A stretch of 22,110 nt of DNA, taken from a virus. The position numbers and the translations under genes were made by a program. The stretch spans positions 1 through 22,110 of IMG/VR virus record IMGVR_UViG_3300025305_000164. One strand, 5' to 3'. This document shows positions 1,132 through 14,910 of this stretch, in pieces (the stretch's first letter is position 1; each line of letters begins with the position of its first letter). The notes below the pieces were generated by a model, which ran no database searches, was not told the DNA's origin, and saw nothing but the letters and a program-made list of their open reading frames with translations.

Positions 1132-2400
1132 TTATTGCTTTGAGGTGTATGTGACTTTTGATCTTCCCCCGCCTTTCTTAGCTGTAACTTTTTCATCTAT
1201 TACTCCTGCTGCTTTAAGTATACTCAAACACTCATCTAGCTTATCTTTGTTCATCTTACGATAGACAGCCTTTAGGAGTGCTGTGCGATCTATTGTCTTC
1301 GCGTCTTTTATTACGCCTTCTACGATTTTGGTTTCAAAGATCTCGTTGGCATATTTGACTTCCTTGAATATAGAGTTCAACCCCTCGAACGTATGACTTA
1401 TTTTTCCTATAGCATCATGAATATCACATTTGTGGATTACTAATGTGCGTCTACGTGCTATCGAGTATGTCATAGCGAGCTTTAATACGTGAGTATGCTC
1501 ACGGCCAAAGAACCCACTTTGTACGTTATCTAGTGTCTCACTTTCTATTCGTGAGTTATACCAAGATTCAAAGTAATCCCATGCGTCTTGTGTAAGCTGC
1601 ATCTCTCCTTCCATACCCATACGATGCTCTAGGTGATTTACTAGTCTATCGCGTAGTTTCTCTAGGACGCTATCCACCACAGGATGTGCAATCCTAATAT
1701 CAGACCGCTCAGAGTGGACAAATATGACACGACCCACAAAACCTTGGTTGAATACGGAAGACGTGACATTTTGAGCGATCCAGTCTGGAGTCGTCGCGCT
1801 GAGTAACGATACAAAGACTTCGTAGACATAATCAGATCCTGATGTTTTGGTTATGTATTCAAATACGTCTGGACAGTCGTACCAGTCTATAAGTAAGTCC
1901 ACTAGACCATTCGACTGCGCGGCTTTAGATAAGAACACTCCTAGCTCAGAGCTAAACAAATAGCATGGACGTGATGTACGGTCTGTTACCACTGGCGTTG
2001 TGTCGGATTCTAGCATACCTTCAAGACCCCTGGACGATATAGCCCTGCACAATGCTTCTGGAGTCATCTTACCTGAGAGTATTGTGCTAAGCCCCTGGGT
2101 CAAGCCTGAGTCTATTTTGTTTTGCGTTGCTCGTCTAAGTAATCCTACCCCTATGTTTATTGCACTACTCTTACGGCTCATTGCTGAGCCTGCCACAAGT
2201 ATCACATAGTGGTTCGGGTAAAGTCTATCGTGTCCGCGAGGGAGCCAGACTTTTCTACCTACGGCTCCACTCAGCAAACTCACTGCTGTCCAGAAATGGA
2301 AATCCCTAGGCGATTCTTGCCCCTTAGTATAATCGAGGTATAGACTAATGAAATCATTTTGGTATTCCCTTTCTGGCCCTAAAGAGGATTCGTCGAGCAT
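1132..2400 (-). CDS. DUF3987-like P-loop ATPase (helicase/primase-associated)
   Basis: This 422-residue protein has an N-terminal part with FHFWTAVSLLSGAVGR (residues 35-49) and a P-loop at 71-79, GSAMSRKSS, where Arg replaces the usual second Gly before Lys-Ser. A candidate Walker B region follows at about 146-157 (CYLFSSELGVFL). SATTPDWI (201-208) and FNQGFVGRVIF (217-227) look like the motor-core motifs of the DUF3987 family found in phage and plasmid primase-helicase proteins. The C-terminus (about 350-415) is helical and resembles a winged helix. The likely role is ATP-driven DNA unwinding or loading at the fork. It lies downstream of the DNA polymerase in the same leftward block and is started from AAGGGATCG. 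No other replicative helicase is seen in the window. Confidence 0.65.
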   Translation of the reverse strand: MLDESSLGPEREYQNDFISLYLDYTKGQESPRDFHFWTAVSLLSGAVGRKVWLPRGHDRLYPNHYVILVAGSAMSRKSSAINIGVGLLRRATQNKIDSGLTQGLSTILSGKMTPEALCRAISSRGLEGMLESDTTPVVTDRTSRPCYLFSSELGVFLSKAAQSNGLVDLLIDWYDCPDVFEYITKTSGSDYVYEVFVSLLSATTPDWIAQNVTSSVFNQGFVGRVIFVHSERSDIRIAHPVVDSVLEKLRDRLVNHLEHRMGMEGEMQLTQDAWDYFESWYNSRIESETLDNVQSGFFGREHTHVLKLAMTYSIARRRTLVIHKCDIHDAIGKISHTFEGLNSIFKEVKYANEIFETKIVEGVIKDAKTIDRTALLKAVYRKMNKDKLDECLSILKAAGVIDEKVTAKKGGGRSKVTYTSKQ

Positions 2401-2770: not shown

Positions 2771-5095
2771 CTACTTACATGCTTTCCAATTAGGGCCAGA
2801 TGCAAACTCTGCAGGTATTACTAACTCGTCCTCCCAGTAATACCCAAATCCTGTTGGAATAGGTTTCTCCATTTCTTCGCAAACTATAGACTTAACTCGT
2901 TCTAGATCCCCCGCCCTACACTGCCCCGCCACAGAGTCATGCACCTGAAGCAATACAGATGCTTCAGGTATGGATTCTATGCGAGACTCTATACGTGCGA
3001 GCGATGCGTTGATGTGGTCTGCTGCTGTAGACTGAGGCACAAATGCTACAGCTGCTCGATGTAGCTGATCACCCCAACGATCTAAGAATATCCTTTGTCG
3101 GCCGAAAGGAGTACGCATCACACGATCAGACTTAAGGTGTTGAATCGTGTTAATCCACCATTTGTGTATGCCAGGTCTGAGCGTTTTGAAGCTCTCTATA
3201 AACCTACGAGCATCATTGAGGGTGAATTTCATATCTGGCACGTACTCATTCATTAAGTCCTTGAGCTTGCCTGGTCCTACCATGTAGTTAATCGCATGAG
3301 ATGCTCGCTTGCCTATGTCACGATATGAATAGTGTGTTCCTTCTACATTGTCACGTACTTGAGACTCAGGGATTCTAAACAAAGCCATTGCATTTTCAGT
3401 ATGAATATCACGCCCTTCTTTAAATCCCTGCATGTAGTTATGATCATTCGCTACATAAGCTGTAATCCTGGCTTCGATTTGTGAACCGTCTGCTTCCCAG
3501 AATACTAGGTCTGGATCTGGTATGAACCAATCGCGTTGATCTCCTGGGACATTCTGAAGGTTCATGCCCTTATTAAACACGTCCTTAGAGCTTGAGATCC
3601 TGCCTGTATCTGTTGCTGAGGTTCTGTATGATGTACGCATTCTGCCATCTGTGTGGATCTTAGCTTCTAAGTATGTCCCTATGATTTTACGACGCTCACG
3701 GACTGCGAGGCACTTATCTATAAACTCCGCGTGTTTAGGCTGCCTGGGCCTAAGTAGTTTTAGTGTGTGTACATCTGTGGATGCTGTCTTACGACCTCGC
3801 GCTAATGGAAGTCGAACTCCTCTGGCGTTGAAGTAGTCCAGTACTTGTTTAGGACTATTAGGATTAATCCCACACAGAGCATCATCGGCAAGAATATTAT
3901 CCACTTCACCAGAGAGCATTTCTTTGCGCTGCGATCTAAGATCTTCATTTATATTTACTCCCTTATGCTCCATACGGATTAAGGTCTTTGTGACTGGCAT
4001 AGCTACAGAGTGAAAGAACTCCCAGGCTTTGGTTTCTACGAGCTCGTGTGTTAGTTTTATGGCTACCTCGTATGTAACACAACAATCAATACCATTGTAT
4101 TCCCATAAGGTATTGTTATAATTACCACTGGTAGCTTCTTTACGCATCTCTTTGTAGAAATTCTTGTTTGTGTATATGGATGCTAAGAGATCTAAACTAT
4201 GACCCATCTCTGGATGCATGACACTATGAGCTACCATTGTGTCCATCCATACATTACGAACCTTGATGCCGAAGTTCTTGGCTAGATACTGAGTATCGTA
4301 ATCTAAGTTTTGTCCGACCTTGAGAGAGTTATTGCTAAGTAGCTTATCTAGCTCTCGTATTAGTTCTATGCGATGCTCGTGACGAAGCTGGGATGTAAAG
4401 GGTATTACGACAGCTTCAGTTTCTGACCTTGCCACTCCGACACAAGTTATACACTCTACGTATGTCTCGATGTCGAATGCTAAGCATGGTGCGTCGTGAT
4501 ATGACTTAAGTGTTTCTATGAGAATCTTTGTTATTAAGCCTGATTCCTCTGTTGCGTAATCCTTCTTGATCTGGCCGTAGTGTACTATGTCACGCTTGTA
4601 GTCTAAGATTGAATCGTAGTCTGTTATTACTCTTGATGCTTTCTTAGCGTCCTTACGACATAACACTAACCATGAATACTGGCGTATTACTGCTATGGGT
4701 GCGATCATAGGAATAACAGGGATTTTTCCTCTGTTAGAAAACAACAATGATCCACGCCACTTTGTGATGCCGGATTCAGCACACAGGAACTTTAATGCAT
4801 ATTCTCCTACTGCGATTATTAGTTTACGTGGGTGCTTTTGTATGAGCTTCCAGTTATCGTCTGCAAACTCGAAAGGATCACTTAATACCTCGAGCTTGTT
4901 CCCAGGAGCTTGTTTAGGATACACATACATTACTAAGCAGTCCTTGCGGAAGATTCCTGCTCGGGCTAGTATGTCATCAAACAACATCTCTCCTTGTGAG
5001 CCAGCGAATGGGTAATCCGCTAGCATGTCATTCTTGGATGGTGATTCACCTAGTATTACTATCTCTGCTTTCTCGTGACCTTCAGGTTGTATCAT
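2771..5095 (-). CDS. Family A DNA polymerase with N-terminal uracil-DNA-glycosylase-like domain
   Basis: This 774-residue protein has three parts. Residues 1-150 resemble family 4/5 uracil-DNA glycosylases: ILGESP (14-19) and YPFAGSQGEML (28-38). The segment expected to hold the catalytic HPS motif reads APIAVIR (132-138), with Ala in place of His. Residues 200-345 are a 3'-5' exonuclease with all three motifs: DIET (208-211), NLDYD (263-267) and YNGID (333-337). Residues 375-774 are the polymerase: motif A DGSQIEAR (536-543), motif B with H600 and Y604 in KRASHAINY, and motif C QVHDS (717-721). There is no 5'-3' exonuclease domain. The enzyme should copy the phage genome with proofreading. 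It starts at ATG after AAGGAG, eight bases away. The domain order is clear; activity of the N-terminal domain is doubtful. Confidence 0.95.
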   Translation of the reverse strand: MIQPEGHEKAEIVILGESPSKNDMLADYPFAGSQGEMLFDDILARAGIFRKDCLVMYVYPKQAPGNKLEVLSDPFEFADDNWKLIQKHPRKLIIAVGEYALKFLCAESGITKWRGSLLFSNRGKIPVIPMIAPIAVIRQYSWLVLCRKDAKKASRVITDYDSILDYKRDIVHYGQIKKDYATEESGLITKILIETLKSYHDAPCLAFDIETYVECITCVGVARSETEAVVIPFTSQLRHEHRIELIRELDKLLSNNSLKVGQNLDYDTQYLAKNFGIKVRNVWMDTMVAHSVMHPEMGHSLDLLASIYTNKNFYKEMRKEATSGNYNNTLWEYNGIDCCVTYEVAIKLTHELVETKAWEFFHSVAMPVTKTLIRMEHKGVNINEDLRSQRKEMLSGEVDNILADDALCGINPNSPKQVLDYFNARGVRLPLARGRKTASTDVHTLKLLRPRQPKHAEFIDKCLAVRERRKIIGTYLEAKIHTDGRMRTSYRTSATDTGRISSSKDVFNKGMNLQNVPGDQRDWFIPDPDLVFWEADGSQIEARITAYVANDHNYMQGFKEGRDIHTENAMALFRIPESQVRDNVEGTHYSYRDIGKRASHAINYMVGPGKLKDLMNEYVPDMKFTLNDARRFIESFKTLRPGIHKWWINTIQHLKSDRVMRTPFGRQRIFLDRWGDQLHRAAVAFVPQSTAADHINASLARIESRIESIPEASVLLQVHDSVAGQCRAGDLERVKSIVCEEMEKPIPTGFGYYWEDELVIPAEFASGPNWKACK

Positions 5096-5267: not shown

Positions 5268-5504
5268 ACCTTGCCTTGTGGTCCTCACTGATTTGTACTT
5301 TGGCTTCGCTCTAAAATACACTGTATCGTAGGGAACATTTGGCCAGCCCTCTGCATTCATGAGGGTCTTGGTTTTATGTGGTCGCATGTGAACTTTAACT
5401 CCATCTTCGTCTACGGTTATTTGAATCCTGCCGCAGGTTGTATACACGCTTACTTTTTGCTGATTTGCTCCGAATCTTGTGCTATGGATCTTATGTTGTT
5501 TCAT
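5256..5504 (-). CDS. Small basic beta-rich hypothetical protein
   Basis: This 82-residue basic protein looks like mostly beta strands (KVSVYTTCGRIQITVDEDG, residues 17-35, then VKVHMRPHKTK). It has a conserved-looking AEGWPNVPYDTVYF segment (51-64) and a Lys/Arg-rich end. The start at 5504 has GGAG seven bases upstream and overlaps the end of the ParB-methyltransferase gene by 14 bases, so the two are probably translated together. The charge and fold could suit nucleic acid binding, but I recognise no family. Its stop codon lies inside a 16-bp palindrome (5252-5267). Confidence 0.65.
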   Translation of the reverse strand: MKQHKIHSTRFGANQQKVSVYTTCGRIQITVDEDGVKVHMRPHKTKTLMNAEGWPNVPYDTVYFRAKPKYKSVRTTRQGDTK

Positions 5505-6846
5505 GGGGAGTCTCCAATACGAGTCTGGACTTAGATACCTTTATAGCCTCTGGGTTTTTGTCGCAGCCTAAAGCTCTACGACCTGACTGGATTGCTGCTA
5601 CGAGATGACCTCCTGAACCACAGCACGGATCTATGACTAACTCACCTTCGAGTGTACACATTTCTATGAAGTGCTTGAGGAGATCTAATGGGCGCTCTGT
5701 AGGATACTTACTGCTCATGGGTCTTTGGAAGGATACTATGTTGGGGCCTAGGCGTTCTGGCATACTTACGGTACCCTTACGTAAATGACAGAGATACTCG
5801 TATGTTTGGTCTCCAGTGGCAGCTCCGTTTATCGCAGGTGTGGATTTGATTTTGTTCCATATCCACGGTGGGTACTCGAACTCTAGGTCTGGAATTAACG
5901 TACATGCGCGTTCGATCCAGAATGTCTGTATCCAGGAGCTAAAGATCCACATGTGAGCGTTAGGTTTTAGGGCTAAGTATAGTTTTGGGATTAACTCGTG
6001 TACGAAACTCTTAACTGTTTCTTCGTCGTCCTGCCATTGGGTTCCATGCGAGGATTTTGATAAAGTATGTGATTCAAATACGTCTATGCCAAAAGGTAAG
6101 TCTGTTAGTACTAAGTCTACGCTTTCTTCTTCGAGTGTACCTAGCCAGTCTAAGGCGTCGCTTAAGACTACGATGCCTTCTAGATCCTGTCTGTGGTTCT
6201 CCATTGCCCTGCGTGCTATTTCGCCTCGTATTTCTTTTATCTTATATGCTTTGAACTTACCTAAGATGCCGCTCTTGGAACTCTCGTCTTCTAGGTTTTT
6301 TAGCTCGGGGATGTGTTGTGCTATGTCTAAGACCCTCGCTACTTTGCGATGGTCACTTACTGAGGCTTCTGATATGTTTAGGTCTTTCGCTGTGTCTTTT
6401 TGGGAGTGACCCCCCTCCACCGCTCCCCGCCCTCGTTTTTGCTTACCTTTCTTTTGCTCCATTAAACGTTCGTATTCGTCTACGGCGCGAGATTCTTCTG
6501 CAGGTGTTAATGGCTCACGTTTAATGTTTTCTTGGAGTTCTATGGTGTGTCTATGCCAGTCGTCTTTTGGAGATATCATTGATATTTTTATGTACTCGAA
6601 GTCTGCCCAGTTTTCGTATGTGTCTTTGTTGTGTATAATATGCTTGACTGCTTTGAGTCTGCGTTCTCCTGCTATTAGTACAAAGTTTGTGTCTACTACG
6701 ATTGGTTGGATCTGCCCTACTTCGTGGATGCTATCTGCGAGTTCTTGTATTTTGTTTGGTGCAAACTCTTTACGCTGCCGTGTCATGGGGATACGGATCT
6801 TGAGAGGATCACACTGCTCACACTGCTCGCTTTCTATGTTATCCAT
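5491..6846 (-). CDS. ParB-domain / DNA methyltransferase fusion
   Basis: This 451-residue protein has three parts. Residues 15-110 form a ParB/sulfiredoxin-like domain with the signature IAGERRLKAVK (58-68). Residues about 145-172 look like a helix-turn-helix (SQKDTAKDLNISEASVSDHR). Residues 225-445 are a Rossmann methyltransferase with catalytic motif TDLPFG (248-253, in place of DPPY) followed later by the SAM-binding DPCCGSGG (406-413). That order (IV before I) fits the beta class of N4-cytosine/N6-adenine DNA methyltransferases. Such fusions are common in phages and are thought to modify phage DNA against host restriction or to regulate expression. No partner nuclease is seen. The start has AGGAG upstream, and a terminator lies just before the gene. 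Target sequence is unknown. Confidence 0.9.
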   Translation of the reverse strand: MDNIESEQCEQCDPLKIRIPMTRQRKEFAPNKIQELADSIHEVGQIQPIVVDTNFVLIAGERRLKAVKHIIHNKDTYENWADFEYIKISMISPKDDWHRHTIELQENIKREPLTPAEESRAVDEYERLMEQKKGKQKRGRGAVEGGHSQKDTAKDLNISEASVSDHRKVARVLDIAQHIPELKNLEDESSKSGILGKFKAYKIKEIRGEIARRAMENHRQDLEGIVVLSDALDWLGTLEEESVDLVLTDLPFGIDVFESHTLSKSSHGTQWQDDEETVKSFVHELIPKLYLALKPNAHMWIFSSWIQTFWIERACTLIPDLEFEYPPWIWNKIKSTPAINGAATGDQTYEYLCHLRKGTVSMPERLGPNIVSFQRPMSSKYPTERPLDLLKHFIEMCTLEGELVIDPCCGSGGHLVAAIQSGRRALGCDKNPEAIKVSKSRLVLETPHETT

Positions 6847-9731: not shown

Positions 9732-10076
9732 CTATATGCTGTTTAGTAGATCCATGGTTTCTTTGCTGCTCATGCGTATTTCTTCTTTTGTTTTCTCATG
9801 TTTCCGTTTCTTTGCTTGCGGTCTGTCGCTATTGTTTAGCTTTGCGTTTTCTAGGAAGTCTAAAGCCTCGCTAAGTTCGCTATCGCTTAGCTCTCGTATG
9901 TCTCGTATTAAGAGCTCGTAGTCTGTTGGGATTGGCTCTAGGTCTGAGCTTGGTGCGAAGGCTCGGTTGGGATCTCCGGGTTTGCCTTGGAGCCATGTAT
10001 GAGTTTCGTCTGCTGGCTCTGCTATTTGTCTTATTTCACCGTTCCAATATACGTATTGGCCTGGATCTAAGCTCAT
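9732..10076 (-). CDS. Hypothetical protein with SH3-like start and DLLNSI tail
   Basis: ATG at 10076 is chosen over an in-frame GTG six bases earlier, because GGAG sits seven bases before the ATG. The 114-residue protein begins with a beta-rich segment (GQYVYWNGEIRQI to SSDLEPIP) that could be a small SH3-like barrel, then a helical acidic part (IRDIRELSDSELSEALDFL). It ends in a Lys/Arg-rich linker and the tail SSKETMDLLNSI. The same tail (SSKEILDLLNSI) and a similar linker end the protein at 10347-10763, so the two probably share a partner or are paralogues. The function is not recognised. Confidence 0.7.
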   Translation of the reverse strand: MSLDPGQYVYWNGEIRQIAEPADETHTWLQGKPGDPNRAFAPSSDLEPIPTDYELLIRDIRELSDSELSEALDFLENAKLNNSDRPQAKKRKHEKTKEEIRMSSKETMDLLNSI

Positions 10077-10218
10077 GGGCACGCTCCTTTTCTAGGTATT
10101 CGTGTAAAGCCCTACGGAGCACCTCGGCCCGTAGGCCGAAGTGGTTTCCGTGGGCGTTGAGGTATGCCTGGAGTTTAGCGTCTAGCTCCGGGCTGAGATT
10201 TACGTACAGTCGTTTCAT
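10036..10218 (-). CDS. Ribbon-helix-helix DNA-binding protein
   Basis: This 60-residue protein has the layout of a CopG/Arc-type regulator: a short strand (KRLYVNLSPELDAKLQAYL, residues 2-20), a first helix, a Gly-containing turn (HGNHFG), a second helix with RAEVLRRALHEYLEK, and a basic tail. These proteins bind palindromic operators as dimers. It overlaps the downstream gene by 41 bases, longer than most overlaps here, but the composition is clearly protein-like. Its start overlaps the stop of the mini membrane protein gene (TAATG). Shine-Dalgarno pairing is weak, so translation may depend on coupling. It is one candidate regulator for the TTACACC-N5-GGTGTAA operators, but nothing ties the two directly. 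Confidence 0.7.
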   Translation of the reverse strand: MKRLYVNLSPELDAKLQAYLNAHGNHFGLRAEVLRRALHEYLEKERAHELRSRPIRILER

Positions 10219-10346: not shown

Positions 10347-10763
10347 TTATATGCTGTTTAGTAAATCCAGTATTTCTTTACTACTCCGCGAGGTTTTTTC
10401 CTTGCGCGTTGTAGCTTTTAACTTAACACGAGGTTTCTTCTTTGCGTAATACTTATTGGGATCTTTTGTGGGATATAAATCCTCCTCTCGTGCTAATGTT
10501 GTAGGGCTTATTTCTGCCCCGTTGCTAAGCGCGTACTGGACTCTATACTTCCAACCGTCACGCTCTGCTATGATTTCTACTATCTTTATGTGTTTTGTTT
10601 CGTGGCGGTCTATGGCTCGCCAGATCTTTATGTCTCCTACGGTCCATCTAGGATCTGTAGTGCGCGCTGTTAGTTCGCACTCTAGTTCCCAACGCCGCTG
10701 TCTTATTTGTATTTCTTCTACGCGTAAGACCCTAATCTTTTCTTCTAATGTACTTACAAGCAC
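10347..10763 (-). CDS. Basic hypothetical protein with SH3-like part and DLLNSI tail
   Basis: This 138-residue protein starts at a GTG whose G is shared with the upstream stop (TAGTG). The N-terminus is a charged helix (residues 4-32, EEKIRVLRVEEIQIRQRRWELE). It is followed by a beta-rich module (HIKIVEIIAERDGWKYRVQY to EEDLYP) that resembles an SH3-like barrel. The end is a Lys/Arg-rich linker and the tail SSKEILDLLNSI, nearly identical to the tail of the 114-residue protein downstream. Basic charge and fold would suit nucleic acid or protein binding. I do not recognise a family. Confidence 0.7.
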   Translation of the reverse strand: MLVSTLEEKIRVLRVEEIQIRQRRWELECELTARTTDPRWTVGDIKIWRAIDRHETKHIKIVEIIAERDGWKYRVQYALSNGAEISPTTLAREEDLYPTKDPNKYYAKKKPRVKLKATTRKEKTSRSSKEILDLLNSI

Positions 10764-11730: not shown

Positions 11731-12027
11731 CTATGGCACCTCTGCGTTGTTAAGCTCGGTGTCTGTTTCTTCTGGTGCAAATATCTCAGCCCACTCGCTA
11801 GGGGTTATACCAGTCTGTATGAACTCCCTAGTGTCTGCGTCTAATGTGGGGAATATGTCTTGGATAAATCCTTCACGCTTGATCCACTTCTGAAGTGCCA
11901 GGGTAAACTGCATCATAGGGAGTCCTACTACCATGCTGTTTCTTTCTCCGCTGTGTATACTCTCACGTGTGAACTCTACTCCATTTTTATGATACGCTAT
12001 CTCGAATGCTCCTATGGTTTTACTCAT
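11731..12027 (-). CDS. Hypothetical protein
   Basis: This 98-residue protein has a beta-rich N-terminal part (IGAFEIAYHKNGVEFTRESI, residues 5-24), a hydrophobic helical centre (VVGLPMMQFTLALQKWIKREGF) and an acidic C-terminus ending ELNNAEVP. The neighbour upstream ends LLNNAELE. The start overlaps the upstream stop (TAATG) and has GGAG upstream. The family is not recognised. It is second in the leftward operon, so it is probably expressed early. Confidence 0.65.
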   Translation of the reverse strand: MSKTIGAFEIAYHKNGVEFTRESIHSGERNSMVVGLPMMQFTLALQKWIKREGFIQDIFPTLDADTREFIQTGITPSEWAEIFAPEETDTELNNAEVP

Positions 12028-12212
12028 TATTCTAGCTCCGCGTTGTTTAAAAGTATGTCTAGGCTACTACTTATGTCACTTAGTTTTACATCTATGTCTT
12101 CGTTGTTTTGTTCTAAGCTCTCTACGGTTTCCTTGATGCTGTCTAGCTCTACTGCTAAGTCCGCGAGCAATGCTTTTATTACTCTGACGTCTAGTCTGTC
12201 GATGCCATCCAT
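12027..12212 (-). CDS. Small coiled-coil protein, first gene of the main leftward operon
   Basis: This 61-residue protein has a heptad-like pattern through most of its length (IKALLADLAVELDSIKETVE, then SLEQNNEDIDVKLSDISSSL), so it is probably a short coiled coil. It follows the promoter at 12280-12307 and the operator at 12250-12268, and its ATG has AAGGAG nine bases upstream. It is therefore the first gene made from that promoter. The family is not recognised; structures of this size are seen in small regulators and adaptors. Confidence 0.65.
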   Translation of the reverse strand: MDGIDRLDVRVIKALLADLAVELDSIKETVESLEQNNEDIDVKLSDISSSLDILLNNAELE

Positions 12213-12249
12213 ATGGATGCTCCTTCGTTATGTAGGGTGTGGTGTATGT

Positions 12250-12268
12250 TTACACCTAAAAGGTGTAA
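12250..12268. promoter_or_regulatory. Palindromic operator, copy 2
   Basis: TTACACCTAAAAGGTGTAA is a 19-bp inverted repeat with 8-bp arms, identical to copy 1 in the TTACACC/GGTGTAA arms and in the flanks GT- and -TTGT. It lies directly downstream of the leftward -10 at 12280-12285, at about +5 to +23 of the expected transcript, where a bound repressor would block transcription. Confidence 0.7.
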
Positions 12269-12279
12269 TTGTATAGTAT

Positions 12280-12307
12280 AATATAATACAATTAGGGGGG
12301 AAGTCAA
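12280..12307 (-). promoter_or_regulatory. Leftward sigma70-type promoter of the main operon
   Basis: On the leftward strand TTGACT (12302-12307) and TATATT (12280-12285) are separated by 16 bases. The -10 lies in TGTATTATATT, and the same string at the same distance occurs in the promoter at 13660-13687. The start would fall near 12273, about 60 bases before the first ATG (12212), with the operator between. Confidence 0.75.
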
Positions 12308-12334
12308 GGGAAGATTTTTCCCATGTCTTAAGTC

Positions 12335-12674
12335 CTTGTTTTTATTGTACTTAAAGCAAACTTATGCAAATTTCTACCAAACTTCTACCATACTTCTACA
12401 CCTTAAGTCTTTGTTTTTAAAGCACTTAGCAAACTTCTGCATACTTCTACATGCCCCTTGGGATCTCGCCGACGAAGGGGTATTTTTATATATATATATA
12501 TTTTATATATATTATTTTCCCTCTCTGGCTGCGTGGGGGCAAGGGGGGTGTAGAAGTTTGTAGAAGTTTCTAACATATTGTTTTTAAAGGGTTTAAGTGT
12601 GGAAGTTTGGTAGAAGTTTGTGCATAAGTTTGATCTAAACTCAATAAAAACAACCATTTAGGGCGTAGAAGTAT
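12335..12674. repeat. Inverted iteron array around an AT-rich core (putative replication origin)
   Basis: Copies of a 10-bp unit, AAACTTCTAC and close variants, start at 12368, 12379, 12390, 12431 and 12441. The same unit inverted (GTAGAAGTTT type) starts at 12550, 12560, 12599, 12610, 12622 and 12665. Neighbours are 10-12 bases apart, about one helical turn. Flanking sequence pairs too: TTGTTTTTATTG and CAAACTTATGCA on the left recur inverted on the right, making a long imperfect inverted repeat. The middle (about 12481-12518) is almost pure A/T with a (TA) run. Iterons around an AT-rich core are the hallmark of origins, but a control region is also possible. No credible gene lies in 12213-12693. 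Confidence 0.65.
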
Positions 12675-12693
12675 GTTACCCCTTCTCTTACTT

Positions 12694-12888
12694 TTACTTC
12701 TTTAAAATCCCGATCCAACTGTCTGGGTTTAGGGCGTTTCTTTGCGGGCGAGTTCTACTTGCTATGTCTGTCCAATTTGATACTACTTTAAACTCTTCAT
12801 CTATTCGTAAGGCATAATCTCCTAAATGCTGTAAAGCGCTGGAACTTAAACTATGTTCACGTGACTCTAAGTATTCTGAATGTTTCAT
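12694..12888 (-). CDS. Small hypothetical protein (tentative)
   Basis: This 64-residue frame is polar at the N-terminus (KHSEYLESREHSLSSSALQH) with a middle that reads as protein (YALRIDEEFKVVSNWTDIA) and a basic end. It starts 12 bases after the stop of the 46-residue gene. The nearest Shine-Dalgarno-like GAGGAA is some 15 bases from ATG, so translation may be weak or coupled. The end runs into the origin-like repeat region. The family is not recognised, and confidence is limited by the poor ribosome site. Confidence 0.5.
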   Translation of the reverse strand: MKHSEYLESREHSLSSSALQHLGDYALRIDEEFKVVSNWTDIASRTRPQRNALNPDSWIGILKK

Positions 12889-13041: not shown

Positions 13042-13056
13042 TTTGTTTCCTTATGT

Positions 13057-13086
13057 AAAAAAGGTGAGGGGATTTCTCCCCTCACC
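13057..13086 (-). terminator. Strong rho-independent terminator
   Basis: GGTGAGGGGA-tttc-TCCCCTCACC (13063-13086) forms a perfect 10-bp stem. On the leftward strand it is followed by TTTTTT (13057-13062). It closes the single-gene unit 13099-13608 thirteen bases after its stop. Confidence 0.9.
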
Positions 13087-13098
13087 CTTTAGGCTTTC

Positions 13099-13608
13099 TT
13101 AGATGTTCAATGCAGCCGCTTTCTTTGCTTCCTTTTCAATGTGGGCGTTTCGTAGATCATTAAAAAGGTCTGCATCTTGAGCTTTGAGCTCGGCCAGGGT
13201 TTCTGCGTCACCAGCTCCAAGAGCTTTACGGAAATTGCTCTTGAACTCTTTTATTGCTGGATCGCTCGTTTCTCTCGATGGATCTTTGACCACACTAATT
13301 GCGTGGTTTAATCCATTCTGAATGAGATCTTCCAGACTTCCGTTTGCGTCTCCACCTACCAGATTGAACCACTCATATAAAAATGTGTTCCAGTCTGGCG
13401 TCTCGAAGATCCTTACCTTGGGCCAATCGTAAGATGGTTTGTTCGCATCTTGACGGTTGACACTATGTGCGCGGATCTCAAAACCTTCACCACTACCTAC
13501 TAAGTCCAGCTCTTCGTATGATGGCATCTTTCGATACCTCTCTATAGGGATAGAATTTGAGTCCCTCAACATAGTCCCTATATTGCTATGTTGGAGCTTT
13601 CCTCTCAT
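13099..13608 (-). CDS. Hypothetical protein in its own transcription unit
   Basis: ATG at 13608 is preferred to an ATG 30 bases upstream, because AAGGA lies nine bases before it. The product is 169 residues. The N-terminal part is basic (MRGKLQHSNIGTMLRD), the middle contains YDWPKVRIFETPDWNTFLYEW (about residues 59-79) and FNLVGGDANGSLEDLIQNGL, and the C-terminus is helical and Ala/Lys/Glu-rich (EKEAKKAAALNI). A promoter (13660-13687) and a strong terminator (13057-13086) frame it alone, which suggests high early expression of one product. That would suit a DNA-binding or host-modifying protein, but no family is recognised. Confidence 0.75.
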   Translation of the reverse strand: MRGKLQHSNIGTMLRDSNSIPIERYRKMPSYEELDLVGSGEGFEIRAHSVNRQDANKPSYDWPKVRIFETPDWNTFLYEWFNLVGGDANGSLEDLIQNGLNHAISVVKDPSRETSDPAIKEFKSNFRKALGAGDAETLAELKAQDADLFNDLRNAHIEKEAKKAAALNI

Positions 13609-13659
13609 TTTGCGCGATCCTTTTTTGTTGTGTTTCAATGTCTAAATTTACTATACTTA

Positions 13660-13687: not shown

Positions 13688-13758
13688 GCTTTATTTTTAC
13701 TTTTGTGAAGTTTTTTATGTAGTGTTACTTGGTATCATGTAGTGCACACATGTGCCCC

Positions 13759-13787
13759 TTGACAACCACTTGGTATTAAGCTATATT
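13759..13787 (+). promoter_or_regulatory. Rightward sigma70-type promoter with a repeat unit in its spacer
   Basis: TTGACA (13759-13764) and TATATT (13782-13787) are 17 bases apart, close to consensus. The spacer holds CACTTGGTA, the inverse of the nearby 10-bp repeat unit with one mismatch; an exact inverse copy (TACTTGGTA) lies at 13726-13734. A protein bound to the repeats could block this promoter. The transcript would run through the repeat cluster and into the antisense of the 14199-14692 cassette, unless it is a leader for the late genes. Confidence 0.65.
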
Positions 13788-13887
13788 CATAGATGGGCAG
13801 AAAAGTATCATATTATACCGCACAATACCTTATAATGTTACTTAATACTACGGTTTTATGCACAATATGTAGTGGTATAGCAAGAAT

Positions 13888-14100
13888 CGTGCCAATACTA
13901 CATATGGTATGCAAGCAAATACCGTGCCAATACTATAAAGTACAAAGTAGTACCAAGTAATACCAAGTAATACTACAAAGTACTAAGTGGTACCAAGTAG
14001 AATATACGCTAAACCATATGGTACCGAGTATACATGGTACAAAGTTAAACTACTTAGTACCGAGTATACTTCAAACTACATAGTACCAAGTAAAGTATAA
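13888..14100. repeat. 10-bp repeat cluster A (consensus TACCAAGTAG)
   Basis: From 13931 to 14000 seven 10-bp units follow each other without gaps. Exact TACCAAGTA occurs at 13951, 13961 and 13991, and variants at 13931, 13941, 13971 and 13981. More units follow at 14022 and 14058 (TACCGAGTAT, inside an identical 12-mer GTACCGAGTATA) and at 14084. Two CGTGCCAATACTA elements precede it (13888-13900 and 13923-13935). The exact 10-base period puts every unit on one face of the helix, as in binding-site arrays. The 590-base gap 13609-14198 otherwise holds only the promoters and terminator listed here. Confidence 0.8.
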
Positions 14101-14198: not shown

Positions 14199-14417
14199 CT
14201 ATTGGTTACATGAAGCGTTTAGTTCATCGAGTGTTTTGTCCAACCTTGCGGATCGCTCTACAGCTTCAACTTGGAGCAATTCGCTATACTGTTTTCCGAT
14301 AGGATCGAACCCTTCGGGGAGTGTTAGATATTCATTTGCATAGTAGTCCCCGTAGAAATTATCTATGGTGCCTAAGCATTTATGATCGCTGTCGAAGTAG
14401 CACTTTATGTCTTTCAT
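14199..14417 (-). CDS. Hypothetical cassette protein
   Basis: This 72-residue acidic protein opens KDIKCYFDSDHKCLGTIDNF (residues 2-21), is rich in Tyr, and has a helical second half (SELLQVEAVERSARLDKTLDEL). It contains three Cys but no clear metal motif. There is no good Shine-Dalgarno before ATG; instead a GGGAGGGC/GCCCTCCC hairpin (14427-14452) lies just upstream, which may control its translation. It is the second gene of a self-contained leftward cassette. The family is not recognised. Confidence 0.6.
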   Translation of the reverse strand: MKDIKCYFDSDHKCLGTIDNFYGDYYANEYLTLPEGFDPIGKQYSELLQVEAVERSARLDKTLDELNASCNQ

Positions 14418-14426
14418 GATATGTTT

Positions 14427-14452
14427 GGGAGGGCCTGTGATAGCGCCCTCCC
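14427..14452. promoter_or_regulatory. Intercistronic 8-bp hairpin
   Basis: GGGAGGGC (14427-14434) pairs perfectly with GCCCTCCC (14445-14452) around a 10-base loop. It lies between the two cassette genes, ten bases before the 72-residue ATG. No T-run follows on the leftward strand, so it is more likely an RNA stability or translation-control hairpin than a terminator. Confidence 0.5.
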
Positions 14453-14461
14453 TGCTCCTTT

Positions 14462-14692
14462 TTAGTCTTGGGGTTGTTTGAAGCTATCTTCGAGTGCCAG
14501 CGCGATGCCAGCGTCCAGAACATCGAGCACTTCCGAGATATGATGCGATTCTACGGCGTGCCCTTTGCTCATCATCCGAAAAGCCCGGATGACACTTTCG
14601 CCAGTGCCGAACAATTTGTTCGGACCGACTGCCTCGCTGAAGCGTTTCAGCTTCTCTGAGGCTGAATAAGGTGATTCGTGCGACTGTACCAT
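14462..14692 (-). CDS. Hypothetical cassette protein (first gene)
   Basis: Two longer starts up to 14770 overlap the promoter. ATG at 14692 has AGGGAGAG seven bases before it and lies downstream of the predicted transcript start, so it is chosen. The product is 76 residues, mostly helical: SASEKLKRFSEAVG (10-23), GTGESVIRAFRMMSKG (29-44) and SEVLDVLDAGIALALEDSF (53-71). The base composition looks richer in G+C than the flanking repeats, in line with acquisition as a unit. The family is not recognised. Confidence 0.6.
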   Translation of the reverse strand: MVQSHESPYSASEKLKRFSEAVGPNKLFGTGESVIRAFRMMSKGHAVESHHISEVLDVLDAGIALALEDSFKQPQD

Positions 14693-14741
14693 GCTACTCT
14701 CCCTGAGTTGTTGGTTAGGCTTCATTGCCGCCAACATTATA

Positions 14742-14770
14742 AAGATACCGAATAAGCCCTGAGAAGTCAA
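14742..14770 (-). promoter_or_regulatory. Promoter of the two-gene cassette
   Basis: TTGACT (14765-14770) and TATCTT (14742-14747) on the leftward strand are 17 bases apart. The predicted start near 14735 leaves a leader of about 40 bases before ATG at 14692. With the terminator at 14144-14183 this makes an autonomous unit. Confidence 0.65.
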
Positions 14771-14795: not shown

Positions 14796-14910
14796 AAAAC
14801 CGTGCCAACGTTACAAAGTACTACGTAGTACCAAGTACGGTCACTATTGTACTAAGTAATACCAAGTAACTGGGGGGCACTACCACTTAGTACCAAGTAG
14901 TACCGCGTAT
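14796..14910. repeat. 10-bp repeat cluster B
   Basis: The same units as in cluster A recur: TACTACGTAG (14819), TACCAAGTAC (14829), TACTAAGTAA (14850), TACCAAGTAA (14860), TACCAAGTAG (14891) and TACCGCGTAT (14901), again mostly on a 10-base step. The segment 14796-14838 aligns without gaps to 13918-13960, including the CGTGCCAA element. The cluster ends about 50 bases before the first rightward gene. I see no clear sigma70 promoter in 14771-14957, so late transcription may need a protein bound here. Confidence 0.75.

Follow-up and report, generated by a model that had tools for sequence, protein, structure and literature searches.

The window analysed here, a stretch of 22,110 nucleotides of phage DNA, carries its early region on the minus strand, with genes for a DUF3987 protein, a family A DNA polymerase (PolA), a ParB_N-methylase fusion, an AAA_24/Sak4-like ATPase and a PD-(D/E)XK nuclease, and the terminase on the plus strand (Table 1). 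The UDG-superfamily domain at the N-terminal end of PolA was recognised by Pfam at 39.4 bits (UDG; cut-off 24.3). In the product of 5491–6846, ParB_N is joined to an N6/N4 DNA methylase through an HTH-like stretch, a fusion conserved in the three lineages described below (A, B and C). No close DNA match of the window, or of the repeat array described below, to named phages was found, and the PolA relatives among named bacterial and archaeal genome records are metagenome bins only, at 26–31% identity. The phage is uncultured and probably marine. Between the minus-strand genes 12027–12212 and 12694–12888 lies an array of short repeats arranged around a block of A/T.

Table 1. Features of the repeat array and of the genes discussed with it (window coordinates).
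Feature	Position	Strand	Remarks
Proposed origin region	12329–12660	.	Long imperfect inverted repeat, centre near 12500; outermost minus-strand unit lies outside
Outer left iteron cluster	12357–12399	+	Four CAAACTTCTAC-type units, starting at 12357, 12367, 12378 and 12389
Inner left iteron pair	12430–12450	+	Units start at 12430 and 12440; almost invariant in relatives
A/T core, 38 bp	12481–12518	.	Proposed duplex unwinding element; least stable 40-bp window of the record
Inner right iteron pair	12550–12570	-	Units start at 12550 and 12560
Outer right iteron cluster	12599–12632	-	Three units, starting at 12599, 12610 and 12622
Outermost right iteron	12665–12675	-	
IHF-like element 1	12329–12353	-	TAA-N6-TAAAAACAA-NNNN-TTA
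IHF-like element 2	12404–12428	-	
IHF-like element 3	12571–12595	-	
IHF-like element 4	12636–12660	+	
Sigma70-like promoter	12280–12307	-	TTGACT-16-TATATT; leftward small-gene operon, just outside the array
DUF3987 protein	1132–2400	-	Predicted MCM-fold AAA+ helicase with C-terminal winged helix, proposed initiator-helicase (Pfam, model, fold matches)
Family A DNA polymerase	2771–5095	-	N-terminal UDG-like and 3'-5' exonuclease domains
60-aa protein	10036–10218	-	Ribbon-helix-helix (RHH)-like (sub-threshold); rival iteron binder; lineage A only
138-aa protein	10347–10763	-	Basic; coiled coil, Tudor/SH3-like barrel and LLNSI tail; possible accessory factor
179-aa early protein	13099–13638	-	Upstream of the array; conserved but fast-evolving in A and B

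The array contains twelve 11-bp iterons of the CAAACTTCTAC type (at most two mismatches), six on the plus strand facing six inverted ones on the minus strand across the core. The first-pass annotation had described five units facing six; the facing arrangement stands, and the count is now six against six. Its other observations on the layout were borne out: the stretch at 12481–12518 is pure A/T, the units follow one another in steps of 10–12 bp within clusters, and the surrounding sequence is a long imperfect inverted repeat, 12336–12653 matching its own reverse complement at 68% identity (E 2e-28). Neighbouring clusters are separated by 39–43 bp and the arms by 110 bp. At a period of 10.4 bp the phasing of the iterons is tight in the left arm (Rayleigh R 0.97) and looser in the right (0.72). 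The earlier proposal of proteins lined up on one helix face fits this lineage, but not lineage B, where the steps are of 8 bp. The array is far beyond chance: within 12213–12693 the twelve units compare with a mean of 0.23 and a maximum of 3 in 500 dinucleotide shuffles, and ten units at one mismatch or fewer compare with 0.014. At this stricter threshold, no CAAACTTCTAC iteron was found elsewhere in the window.

In lineages A and B a second repeated element, TAA-N6-TAAAAACAA-NNNN-TTA, is interposed between the clusters of iterons; lineage C does not have it. Its core, TAAAAACAANNNNTTA, is present in four copies in the window and in three or four per long lineage A contig, and is confined to the array in all four long A contigs. 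The NNNN varies among the 53 distinct A and B copies, of which 50 have the TAA at −11 to −9, although the search pattern did not include it. The element resembles an IHF site: AAACAANNNNTTA, at four places, fits 12 of the 13 positions of the IHF consensus WATCAANNNNTTR. An HU/IHF family protein is encoded in none of the eight genomes searched, with working controls, and a host protein is therefore assumed to act there. The direction of the element seems free, as the copies in L029 (11740–12110) are mostly opposite in direction and the iterons keep theirs. IHF and HU are both known to assist at origins of plasmids and chromosomes (PMC4980987).

Regarding the surroundings of the array, the leftward promoter is covered by a near-perfect palindrome, TAATTGTATAGTAT-A-ATATAATACAATTA (12266–12294), like a repressor operator. 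On the other side, a second repeat array with units of 9–10 bp (TACCAAGTA / TACTTGGTA) on both strands occupies 13726–14100 and 14812–14899, flanking the genes at 14199–14770 and overlapping promoter-like sites at the early/late divergence. It is also found in G001, G003 and G004, and a different, GTTTGGCGTA-like repeat stands at the analogous place in lineage B. These units are probably operators of a regulator. Within the window, this second array is the chief rival as an origin; it has no comparable A/T core or mirror symmetry. A weak Rfam match to the molybdenum cofactor riboswitch at 13051–13089 (23.3 bits; gathering threshold 36) overlaps a strong hairpin (13059–13090) and is probably due to chance or to a terminator.

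The close relatives (lineage A) are IMG/VR contigs whose PolA is 83–93% identical to that of the window; G002 and L003 are the same contig, as are G003 and L007. Conservation of the repeats in such relatives, on which the first-pass annotation had staked its reading, was found in all of those covering the place: the array is intact, in the position, order and spacing described for the window. The spacing is nearly fixed, with 10–12 bp within clusters, 39–43 bp between them and 107–111 bp across the core; L031 carries one extra cluster of three units. Compared with the window, 7–15% of iteron sites and 0–15% of core sites differ in L003, L007, L012 and L014. At fourfold synonymous sites of polA and the DUF3987 gene the differences from the window reach 40% (G002) and 49% (G003), so that in the two genomes where both were measured the iterons and the core change far less than synonymous sites. 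Terminal repeats of 77 bp and 71 bp are found in G002 and G003, respectively. Matches to the iteron-pair pattern in L021, L030 and L032 proved on inspection to be unrelated and due to chance.

The same plan is built from other units in two more distant lineages. Lineage B was found with a PolA profile (PolA identity ~59%), and its array consists of facing GTTTCAAA units in 8-bp steps around a ~43-bp A/T core that is invariant in four genomes. In lineage C (G019 and G021; PolA identity 30–32%), AATTATGGA units face TCCATAATT units around an A/T core in both genomes, the array of G021 straddling the contig ends. As in A, the arrays of B and C are upstream of orthologous genes for the nuclease, Sak4, methylase, PolA and DUF3987 protein. 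A search for 28-bp A/T stretches in all loci of the collection yielded only 42. Of these, 31 scored as facing-repeat arrays of A, B or C, although several loci are overlapping parts of one contig and the 31 are therefore not independent cases. Nearest-neighbour calculations place the core as the 40-bp window of lowest stability in each of the nine A and B genomes tested, and as a very close second in lineage C. For most PolA/DUF3987 phages at ~30% identity the stretches read contain nothing comparable, so the mirror-image design is not shared by all phages with this replication module. No array was found in three phages that share the replication gene order, Microcystis phage Mel-JY34, Desulfofustis phage LS06-2018-MD01 and ctMlz233. 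A further candidate, L067, has an A/T core similarly far upstream of PolA and GGAACTATC-like repeats, but these run mostly in one direction and the case is unproven.

We consider it very likely that the array is the replication origin of the phage. The arrangement of facing iterons and A/T core occupies a single site in each genome. This reading, already that of the first-pass annotation, gains support from the presence of the array in the relatives and of the same architecture, with other units, in the two distant lineages. A conserved architecture combined with a changing unit sequence is the pattern predicted for an origin with a co-evolving initiator, and archaeal origins likewise combine a conserved plan with diverse repeats (PMC4010727). 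A single conserved array might be accounted for by an operator or an RNA; the complete change of the units on both arms, with the architecture kept, is harder to explain in that way. The minimum of the cumulative GC skew, near 14.1 kb, lies close to the switch of gene strand between early and late regions and ~1.6 kb away from the array, so skew cannot separate replication from transcription here; dominated by gene strand, it is uninformative as an origin test.

The failure of the first-pass annotation to recognise an initiator protein was confirmed in eight genomes for host-type and plasmid-type initiators. Rep_3 (PF01051) was found in none of the eight, its controls matching in E. coli and L. 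lactis, and the iterons, of 11 bp here and 8 bp in lineage B, are shorter than the 17–22 bp of the Rep_3 type. DnaA (PF00308) and the DnaB-type helicase (PF03796) were also found in none of the eight, with working controls, a result that concerns phage-encoded proteins and leaves room for those of the host to act. Phage lambda uses the host DnaB helicase. As for DnaA boxes, the array holds a single TTATGCACA (12619–12627), which is not kept in L007, L012 or L026. No initiator of the Orc1/Cdc6 type was detected among the window proteins scanned with Pfam.

The DUF3987 protein is the only candidate for a replicative helicase. It matches its family (PF13148) at 49.2 bits, against a cut-off of 27, and has no Pfam MCM match; a sequence-profile search of solved structures yielded no MCM chain and nothing meaningful. 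Its AlphaFold2 model (51 sequences, pLDDT 84.1, pTM 0.79), on the other hand, predicts an MCM-type AAA+ fold. The 50 best structural entries are all MCM (Z 18–20), led by 6mii_B (Z 20.1, 286 residues, rmsd 4.7, 10% identity), and the best Foldseek E is 1.7e-9. At the C-terminal end of the model, residues ~350–420 form helices and two strands in winged-helix order. DUF3987 proteins are widespread in uncultured phages and have been predicted to be helicases of mobile elements in a study (PMC5862659) that, as far as we found, does not state an MCM-like fold. The title of a reference in the same study presents Cch, the DUF927 protein of SCCmec, as an active MCM-like helicase. In SaPI Rep, the C-terminal domain recognises iteron origins, and the protein appears to bind as two hexamers (PMC7581432).

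By analogy with Cch and SaPI Rep, the DUF3987 protein may read the iterons itself, an assignment that we find plausible, if not quite an even prospect. The 10 kb between its gene (1.1–2.4 kb) and the array (12.3–12.7 kb) count against this step, given that SaPI origins adjoin rep and that in SaPI and SCC elements the origin is directly downstream of the helicase gene. In the putative recognition helix (385–397), 12 of 13 positions are invariant in A. Fixed differences between A and B affect 6 of its 13 positions, 16 of 58 in the rest of the winged-helix domain and 70 of 331 in the AAA part; the helix is not significantly separated from the rest of the winged helix (p 0.16–0.20), so the comparison gives only a hint of DUF3987 specificity and, as a proof of it, was set aside as suggestive but not significant. 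If iteron and winged helix co-evolve, the three lineages would form a natural series of switches in specificity.

The explanation that best accounts for these observations together, and that we regard as likely, is an origin at which an initiator is loaded on facing arms, the core melts and two forks are established, the DUF3987 protein being the most likely reader. Initiator subunits would load along the two arms in opposite orientation, pointing at the core, while an IHF- or HU-like bending protein would fold the arms and bring the clusters of each together. The strain would be released by melting of the A/T core, two helicase hexamers would then be loaded head to head, one ring per strand, and two forks would depart in opposite directions. 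The iterons would most likely be read by the DUF3987 protein through its C-terminal winged helix, as in the self-loading helicases of SaPI and SCC elements. Precedents for helicases loaded head to head from facing sites are papillomavirus E1, SV40 T-antigen and MCM (PMC3401641). A more specific version, in which two MCM-fold DUF3987 hexamers load themselves head to head, each winged helix reading its own iteron arm with the help of IHF-like folding and without a separate initiator or loader, is put forward tentatively.

Among the alternatives, one that would leave the array an origin is that the iterons are recognised by a small phage protein distinct from the DUF3987 helicase, which it would then load. 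We rate this as possible, though short of probable; the Tudor-like 138-aa, the RHH-like and the 179-aa proteins would be the candidates. The family of the basic 138-aa protein adjoins the array in several lineage A genomes (G003, L012, L026 and L031) and in lineage B, and its conserved C-terminal tail is common to a 116-aa protein, but a structure search gave no significant fold match (none at E 0.001 or better). The tail, DLLNSI after a charged linker, ends the otherwise different early proteins encoded at 9732–10082 and 10347–10763, whose lineage B orthologues end in KINALLNI / KMNALLNL, and it has the look of a docking peptide common to both. Within lineage B, L060 and L063 have the 116-aa protein in its short form, and in L059 (4671–5624) and L061 (4206–5159) a larger N-terminal domain (317 aa) precedes it in a fusion. 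The 179-aa family evolves fast and is syntenic, but it has zero net charge and belongs to no recognised family; the first-pass annotation had proposed this protein for binding assays, as 13099–13608 (the reading frame is in fact 13099–13638), and it is a less likely candidate than the DUF3987 helicase. The RHH-like protein was not found in lineage B, and its RHH identity, based on sub-threshold matches only, was not accepted. The same 60-aa protein would be the reader if the array were a parC-type, centromere-like partition site with short iterons. ParR-type sites have 10–11 bp repeats flanking a promoter, and the 8–11 bp repeats in two blocks resemble them; however, no ParA family ATPase was found in the eight genomes, with a working control, the two blocks are oriented towards each other rather than in parallel, and lineage B would again be without the protein, which makes partition very improbable.

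An operator or enhancer array, on which a phage repressor or activator would control the leftward promoter, is unlikely, although a good promoter does stand 20–50 bp outside the array and a double role is thus possible. Operator-like arrays do exist in this phage, as the second array overlaps promoters at 13.7–14.1 kb and 14.8–14.9 kb. Against this function, the iterons are symmetrical about an A/T core far from the promoter, the rest of the window has no unit with one mismatch or fewer, no stretch of the genome is less stable than the core, and in L003 and L014 the promoter is rearranged and the array is kept. An RNA element, whose transcript would fold into a long hairpin through the inverted arms, is again highly improbable. 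The inner arms can pair over ~30 bp, but covariation gives the hairpin no support (term +0.47, from a fold on an alignment with L029 in the wrong strand), and the inner pairs vary so little that they do not speak for RNA pairing. In L029 and others the arms vary independently and mismatches are left uncompensated, Rfam has no family at the array, and from one lineage to another both arms adopt a new unit consensus that they share, as would be expected for sites bound by a protein.

As an origin, the array is related in different ways to several described systems. The SaPI Rep and SCC Cch helicases are encoded by mobile genetic elements and have a C-terminal DNA-binding domain, predicted here, Cch being MCM-like; their origins, bound as if by two hexamers, contain multiple short iterons, as does the array, and a family A polymerase is found in pattern 2 SCC elements as well as in the phage (PMC7581432). 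In contrast to them, the protein here is of the DUF3987 type rather than DUF927 or Primase_Cterm, the genome is that of a phage, and the arms are mirror images with interposed IHF-like elements. Archaeal ORB origins similarly place an A/T-rich unwinding region between inverted repeats, work with an MCM-fold helicase (a predicted fold here) and keep their plan while the repeat sequence varies between initiator systems (PMC4010727), but the array has 8–11 bp units in tandem clusters and is not beside a recognised initiator gene, and Orc1/Cdc6 was not detected among the scanned window proteins. In herpes simplex OriS and OriL, short recognition boxes for UL9 are inverted across an A/T-rich spacer (PMC12543377); OriS has three boxes against twelve units here, UL9 is an SF2 helicase, and the viruses are unrelated. 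The iteron origins of RK2, F, P1 and R6K share with the array repeated initiator sites and an A/T-rich unwinding region, IHF and HU being helpers, and their 17–22 bp iterons are read by Rep proteins, with DnaA and DnaB (PMC4980987), whereas the facing arms here are made of 8–11 bp units, and Rep_3 and DnaB were not found. The lambda ori, bound by O protein, is also a phage origin with an iteron block, but it has four tandem repeats inside a gene (PMC11447400, PMC7466680).

An iteron origin is of a known kind, while a DUF3987 protein would be an unusual partner for it, and we found no described origin for DUF3987 proteins in the literature. The array offers a candidate origin delimited to 350 bp, of which three lineages supply natural variants, so that self-loading, origin specificity and the head-to-head assembly of an MCM-fold helicase could be tested in a small bacterial system. 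It also suggests how origins may be found in uncultured phages, as facing repeats around the least stable stretch of the genome, upstream of the replication operon.
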